Below are positions 12,383 to 13,115 of a stretch of 13,115 nt of DNA, one piece after another. The DNA lies in assembly GCA_013140935.1 (NCBI GenBank), contig JABFSD010000555.1, forward strand, positions 1 to 13,115. The letters run 5' to 3'. The translations under genes were made by a program, and so were the position numbers. This DNA comes from Acidobacteriota bacterium. Lineage in GTDB: Bacteria > Acidobacteriota > Blastocatellia > RBC074. The first letter of the stretch is position 1; each line of letters starts with the position of its first letter. The notes under the pieces were generated by a model. It was not told where the DNA came from. It ran no database searches and saw nothing but the letters and a program-made list of their open reading frames with translations.

Positions 12383-13115
12383 ATTGGCTTGGAAGTCCAC
12401 GTTCAACTTAAAACCGCGTCGAAGTTATTCAGCGCGTCTTCATCGGCGTTCGGCCACGAGCCGAATGCCAACACCGATCCCGTCGTCTTAGGTTTGCCCG
12501 GCTGTTTGCCGGTGTTGAATCGCCACGCCATCGAGCAAGCGGGCAAGGCGGCGCTGGCCTTGAACTTGCGCGTCAATAACGCGTCCATCTTTGCGCGCAA
12601 ACATTATTTTTATCCCGACTTGCCGAAAGGCTATCAGATTTCGAAATACGATCAGCCGTTTTCCTCTGACGGCCACGTGGAGTTCCTCACCAGCGAACGC
12701 GACGAAGCCGGACGCCCAACGGAATGGAAGCTCAAACGGTTTGGCATCACGCGCGCGCACCTCGAAGAAGACGCGGGCAAGTCCATGCACGATCAAGGCG
12801 ACCCGACCAAGTCGCACGTAGACCTCAATCGCGCCGGTACGCCGTTGCTCGAAATCGTCAGCGAGCCGGATTTTCGCACCAGTTGGGAAGCCCACGATTA
12901 CCTGATCTTTCTGCGCCGCACCGAGACGTTGGCATCGCAGCGCAAATTTCCTTCTTCCATATTGCCATCGCATACGCCGAGGCTTTGCACGGTGCGGCAT
13001 CCCGGTGAACCTTTCGGTACGCGCACCGAACTCAAAAACATCAACTCCGCACGCTTTCTGCAAAAAGCCATTGATTATGAGATCGCACGGCAAATTACCG
13101 TGCTGGAAACTGGCG
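12359..13115 (+). CDS. gatB: Aspartyl/glutamyl-tRNA(Asn/Gln) amidotransferase subunit B, 3' truncated, with an inverted internal segment
   Basis: GatB is the tRNA-binding and kinase subunit of GatCAB, which turns Glu-tRNA(Gln) and Asp-tRNA(Asn) into the amidated forms. The first 252 codons are visible. The start is GTG at 12359 with AAGGAG 8 bases upstream. VIGLEVHVQL (Glu12, His14) carries the metal-site residues, RKHYFYPDLPKGYQISKYDQP is typical, and the family signature HVDLNRAGTPLLEIVSEPD is at residues 153-171. From residue 189 to 211 the sequence (starting ETLASQRKF) does not resemble GatB; from GEPFGTRTELKNINSARF it is normal again. Reverse-complementing 12924-12989 restores TVQSLGVCDGNMEEGNLRC and then DANVSVRHPGEP in frame. 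As written, the conserved core is lost, so this orientation probably encodes an inactive subunit of a normally essential enzyme. No stop arises in either orientation. The 3' end lies beyond the window. Confidence 0.93.
   Translation, partial: MKAGWEAVIGLEVHVQLKTASKLFSASSSAFGHEPNANTDPVVLGLPGCLPVLNRHAIEQAGKAALALNLRVNNASIFARKHYFYPDLPKGYQISKYDQPFSSDGHVEFLTSERDEAGRPTEWKLKRFGITRAHLEEDAGKSMHDQGDPTKSHVDLNRAGTPLLEIVSEPDFRTSWEAHDYLIFLRRTETLASQRKFPSSILPSHTPRLCTVRHPGEPFGTRTELKNINSARFLQKAIDYEIARQITVLETG
12915..12998. repeat. 9-bp inverted repeat bounding the gatB inversion
   Basis: GCCGCACCG (12915-12923) and CGGTGCGGC (12990-12998) are perfect reverse complements with 66 bases between them; the pairing does not extend in either direction. 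Both arms are part of the coding frame: the left lies in LRRT, the right in SVRH. Recombination or template switching between them produces exactly the misoriented segment seen, because the arms read the same either way. Confidence 0.9.
12924..12989 (-). other. Inverted 66-bp segment inside gatB (putative intragenic inverton)
   Basis: The true coding sense of this 66-base block is on the minus strand relative to the rest of gatB. Its reverse complement reads VQSLGVCDGNMEEGNLRC followed by DANV, the conserved GatB core. In the present orientation it reads nonsense without a stop codon. The length is 22 codons, so flipping keeps the frame on both sides. Confidence 0.88.

Follow-up and report, generated by a model that had tools for sequence, protein, structure and literature searches.

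The analysed stretch of DNA, 13,115 bases (the window), is the entire contig C92 of a 73.8%-complete assembly, which totals 6.09 Mb and comprises 1,235 contigs. The 5' part of gatB occupies its right end (12260-13115, plus strand; PF02934, E=3.7e-73). The GatB_N domain begins at about 12380, and the frame is open at the contig end. As written, this frame matches GatB_N and no other Pfam family. The other frames scanned encode a tannase-like protein, an Mrr-like nuclease, an M48-like protein, a DUF1501 protein, an AAA ATPase, a PSD1/PSCyt2 protein, an aldo/keto reductase and two DegT aminotransferases, and the frame at 4703-5182 matches no family. The nuclease, encoded at 752-1450, is a protein with an Mrr-like restriction endonuclease domain (PF04471). 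A short repeat at 8407-8434 contains 25-mers common to contigs C9, C18, C21, C54 and C152, its orientation differing between some of these, and is possibly a dispersed REP-like element.

Within the gatB frame there is a perfect inverted repeat with a left arm GCCGCACCG (12915-12923) and a right arm CGGTGCGGC (12990-12998), both given on the plus strand. The arms are separated by a 66-base spacer, the whole unit covering 12915-12998. Pairing stops at 9 bp, as positions 12914/12999 and 12924/12989 are unpaired. The 66-bp segment between the arms (12924-12989) carries the conserved core of GatB on the minus strand. In the sequence as it stands, the frame gives LRRT-ETLASQRKFPSSILPSHTPRLCT-VRHPGEPFGT. 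When the 66 bases are reverse-complemented, it reads LRRT-VQSLGVCDGNMEEGNLRCDANVS-VRHPGEPFGT, and both junctions are in frame. A tblastn search, its query a portion of a database GatB, places the core at 12996-12913 of the minus strand with 96% identity over 28 residues, and the Pfam GatB_N model also matches the minus strand at 12910-12993. About 22 residues of the GatB_N domain are swapped out in the flipped form. The preliminary description of this DNA had reported a gatB segment inverted in place between 9-bp repeats, and a conserved core restored in frame at both junctions by reverse-complementing the 66 bases; it was correct in position and in detail. Inverted repeats with 9-base arms are not rare as such, since the window contains 24 complementary 9-mer pairs at distances of 24-150 bases (longer arms being counted repeatedly). 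A segment flipped exactly between the members of one such pair looks beyond chance.

The flip adjoins a contig break and does not lie deep within a contig: C92 ends 117 bases beyond the right arm. The rest of the gene is on contig C152 (3,914 bases), which completes gatB with a GatB_Yqey domain and a stop codon ending at base 887. C152 begins 21 bases into the 84-base unit of arm, segment and arm, in the normal orientation. It opens with 54 of the 66 segment bases in the normal orientation, and its bases 1-63 match window 12915-12977, reverse-complemented, at 100% identity. Bases 55-180 of C152 agree, likewise at 100% identity, with the 126 bases that end C92 (window 12990-13115). Thus the right-hand junction also occurs in its normal form in this assembly. 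Its normal left-hand counterpart is absent from every contig, and therefore the normal allele is not visible end to end. Accordingly, the claim that the locus exists in two states is supported in part, by the normal orientation with its right junction, which opens C152. A second intact gatB elsewhere was rejected, as in this 73.8%-complete assembly PF02934 matches C92 and C152 and no other contig.

Window 12701-13115 and C152 have one 126-mer in common and no 127-mers. Since 126 is k-1 for a graph with k=127, this is the overlap to be expected if C92 ended at the point where the two orientations come together again, its last k-mer being the final one of the reversed path. We infer the use of a k=127 assembler; public MAG contig names of the form 'contig-127_...' exist and suggest that assemblies of this type occur. 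When 122 of the 1,235 contigs were checked, the only other end-to-end overlap of two contigs was that of C22 and C21, also 126 bases long. Here the branches part at a hairpin loop, GA versus TC (L034, positions 4210-4360 of C21; L035, the end of C22). The remaining contig-end matches (C15/C75, C80/C63, C95/C26, and C95 with itself) are 45-87 bases long and of a different kind.

A match to gatB was found in 53 of 58 genomes, that is, in this genome and 52 others. Only this genome (G000) has a minus-strand match inside the gene. The core is in the forward orientation in 49 of the 50 relative loci fetched, the fiftieth being an N-terminal fragment that does not include the core. Thus the comparison with relatives proposed in the preliminary description reveals no flip in any relative examined. 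The same holds for the homologous proteins listed. Among the 120 matches listed of 7,999, the motif CDGxMExG occurs in 117, and the other three have one-letter variants of it in the forward order. The flipped peptide has no five-residue word in common with these 120 homologues of the 7,999. The search scored the 8,000 candidates that had the most words in common with the query, in a database clustered at 90% identity, and therefore a flipped near-copy could hide inside a cluster. A scan of genome contigs yielded only distant relatives, with at most 61% identity; the genome itself may be outside the scanned set.

The inverted repeat is not conserved. It could be measured at 48 of the 50 fetched loci, two being unmeasurable. 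The longest match is 7 bp, in one genome of the same genus, and the other 47 loci have 2-6 bp. As the repeat is shorter at all 48 measured loci, it is not a kept site.

A search for gatB across the phylum covered 396 genomes, with the best matches listed. In a repeat search of nine genomes whose matches were weak or double, none showed an embedded minus-strand core. Among these nine, G233 has a run of N at the core, the contig of G365 ends there, and about 29 profile positions are missing from the gene of G196. In the latter (L268, contig C37) the missing positions are 125-153 of the profile and the frame is contiguous, which is either a deletion or an assembly error. Assemblies are broken or filled with N near the core (profile positions about 143-185) at four loci: at the start of a contig in L246 (C517 of G009) and L248 (C617 of G050), at the end of a contig in L269 (C3 of G365), and in L266 (C8 of G233), where the run of N may be masking. 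It is as if the gatB core were a trouble spot for assembly. The assemblies of G041, G077, G201 and G358 break elsewhere in the gene.

Other flips in the same assembly were sought by a score based on codon usage, calculated for 122 of the 1,235 contigs (576,952 bases). In a loose test with spacers up to 300 bases (2,009 combinations of inverted repeat and frame), the gatB segment ranked 33rd, mostly behind hits with weaker flanks, and the test was therefore tightened after that result by requiring strongly coding flanks. Among the 467 combinations of the tightened test, flipping of the gatB segment gives the largest gain, 17.2 bits. The runner-up, in C57, gains 17.1 bits; it is non-coding by score in both orientations and was rejected on the score only. 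Any gain at all was observed for 18 of the 467 combinations, and three places besides gatB were inspected. In addition to C57, these were C107, where the candidate lies in the space separating two open frames, of which the second starts as a normal reductase-like protein, and C108, where it is antisense to an uninterrupted frame of 1,095 residues. Thus none of the three places inspected, out of the 18 gaining combinations in the 122 contigs, is a second convincing flip.

We conclude that the backwards gatB segment is probably a chimera formed at a short inverted repeat during library preparation or assembly, and not a switch operating in the cell; we give this reading a probability of roughly 0.6. 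Chimeras with a similar anatomy have been published. In the PDSM model, chimeric reads of sonication libraries contain a stretch between two short inverted repeats that has been reverse-complemented (PMC10908179). Hairpin-type microhomology chimeras, MICR, arise at end repair (PMC8674242). Both papers deal with human DNA, which weakens the parallel. As in these chimeras, short inverted repeats bound a reverse-complemented stretch in gatB, and normal molecules coexist with it. The reading also agrees with the 100% identity of the two orientations within one assembly, with the single common 126-mer and the lack of a common 127-mer, as expected of paths meeting in a k=127 graph, and with the equally long overlap of C22 and C21, which likewise part at a hairpin. 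It further agrees with the fragmentary state of the genome, with the lack of the flip in all relatives examined and with the normal core of the 120 homologues listed of 7,999.

The chimera could have arisen as follows. When the DNA is sheared or its ends are repaired, single strands would pair by way of the 9-base arms, and copying would proceed onto the wrong strand. This would produce reads of two classes, one that enters the reversed segment from the left flank and one that leaves it for the right flank. If true coverage was thin, a multi-k assembler may have joined the two classes, C92 following the reversed path. The contig would then halt where the reversed and the normal paths rejoin, leaving the overlap of k-1 bases with C152. 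This account presumes the assembler, its k and thin coverage, and its weakest step is the presumption that the two classes were joined while k was smaller than the 84-base unit.

Several observations do not fit the chimera easily. Whereas the PDSM and MICR chimeras are seen at the level of reads, here both flipped junctions are in one assembled contig, and the published models, on our reading, give one junction per molecule. Hence either two classes of chimera were joined by the assembler, or one molecule was chimeric twice. The normal left-hand junction, as noted above, is in no contig. Folding of the 94-base stretch is no more favorable than that of shuffled versions (z -0.71 and -0.57), and no unusually stable hairpin was found. 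Finally, with no second convincing flip among the three places inspected in the 122 scored contigs, the flip looks rare in the examined part of the assembly, which is some evidence against a chimera-rich library.

The best of the alternatives, although on balance we consider it unlikely, is a real inversion that is not programmed. Template switching in replication, at the 9-base arms, would have flipped the segment in a part of the population, breaking GatB in those cells, and both alleles would have been assembled. This accounts in one step for the two flipped junctions of C92, and the flip is exact at perfect arms. The 63 bases common to both orientations do not differ at a single position, as a recent event would predict. 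Mutation by short-range template switching has been described (PMC7954356), and the gatB flip resembles template-switch and small hairpin-loop inversions (PMC7954356, PMC12928735) in being an exact inversion between short arms. However, it differs from them in being known from one assembly alone, where it is seen once. Moreover, a common allele should assemble through both flanks, whereas the flip ends at a contig break, and a real inversion leaves a break at this very spot unexplained. The replacement of about 22 GatB_N residues and the lack of a flip in the relatives examined and in the 120 homologues listed of 7,999 also count against it.

Loss of GatB might be tolerated, and in that case a real null allele would be survivable. 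The genome contains a complete gene for AsnRS, above the cut-off, and a truncated one for GlnRS, of which a contig end preserves 151 of the 524 positions and which is below the cut-off. GatA is above the cut-off, with one TGA counted within the match. Among the 337 good-quality genomes of the phylum, 306 have a gatB match and 31 do not. The characterization of GatB as an essential enzyme in the preliminary description is therefore doubtful for this organism, where, judging by gene content alone, GatB may be dispensable. In the full set of 396 genomes, 48 have no gatB match. The 20 listed of these 48 include four each from f10 and f37, families for which the table shows no genome with a match, and four from the mixed family f11. 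Lineage-wide loss of gatB in such families is possible.

A live two-state gene, in which inversion of the 66-base core segment through the 9-base arms would switch tRNA amidation off in some cells and the loss would be tolerated owing to direct charging of tRNA by AsnRS and GlnRS, is improbable. The programmed form of this idea is likewise unlikely. The preliminary description had proposed that the locus is a reversible intragenic inverton turning GatB on and off, which would involve a site-specific recombinase. Chanin et al., in Nature in 2024, reportedly described intragenic invertons. The gatB locus resembles such elements in having a segment within a coding frame that is bounded by inverted repeats, here perfect, and in the presence of both orientations in the data, namely in one assembly, the normal one lacking its left junction. 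On the other hand, the repeat consists of 9-bp arms 66 bp apart, the segment is short, its flip breaks the core domain, it lies near a contig end, and the repeat, with its 7 bp in the same-genus genome and 2-6 bp at 47 of the 48 measured loci, is not kept in relatives. Tyrosine recombinases (PF00589) have eight matches in the genome, which could be counted in its favor, but all of them are on contigs other than C92 and C152. No recombinase family was found among the ten other frames scanned in the window or the four frames scanned in C152 (the 3' part of gatB, SET, DUF1287 and MFS), and the serine recombinase family (PF00239) has 0 matches in the 73.8%-complete assembly. With the flip near a contig end and in no relative examined, with shorter repeats at the measured loci and with no recombinase among the frames scanned on either contig, the on/off inverton is not supported.

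The literature retrieved on inversion or phase variation of gatB, judged partly by title, contains no such gatB switch; PMC4073114 deals with pilin inversion and with a gene inserted beside gatB.

Co-assembly of two strains, one with a fixed flipped and likely dead gatB and the other with a normal gene, would likewise yield rejoining paths and a k-1 overlap, but it is very unlikely given zero substitutions over the 126 shared and the 63 inverted bases, and strains without a substitution between C92 and C152 would therefore be indistinguishable here.

Thus it is likely that the flipped core of gatB represents not an on/off switch but a sequencing or assembly chimera, or else a stray mutant. This calls for caution, as an exact in-frame flip in a metagenome contig can mimic an inverton while another contig holds the normal orientation. 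Inverton claims in such genomes can be screened at little cost by looking for k-1 overlaps at contig ends. If the inversion were real, it would mean that a core enzyme of translation is subject to phase switching, which might affect mistranslation.
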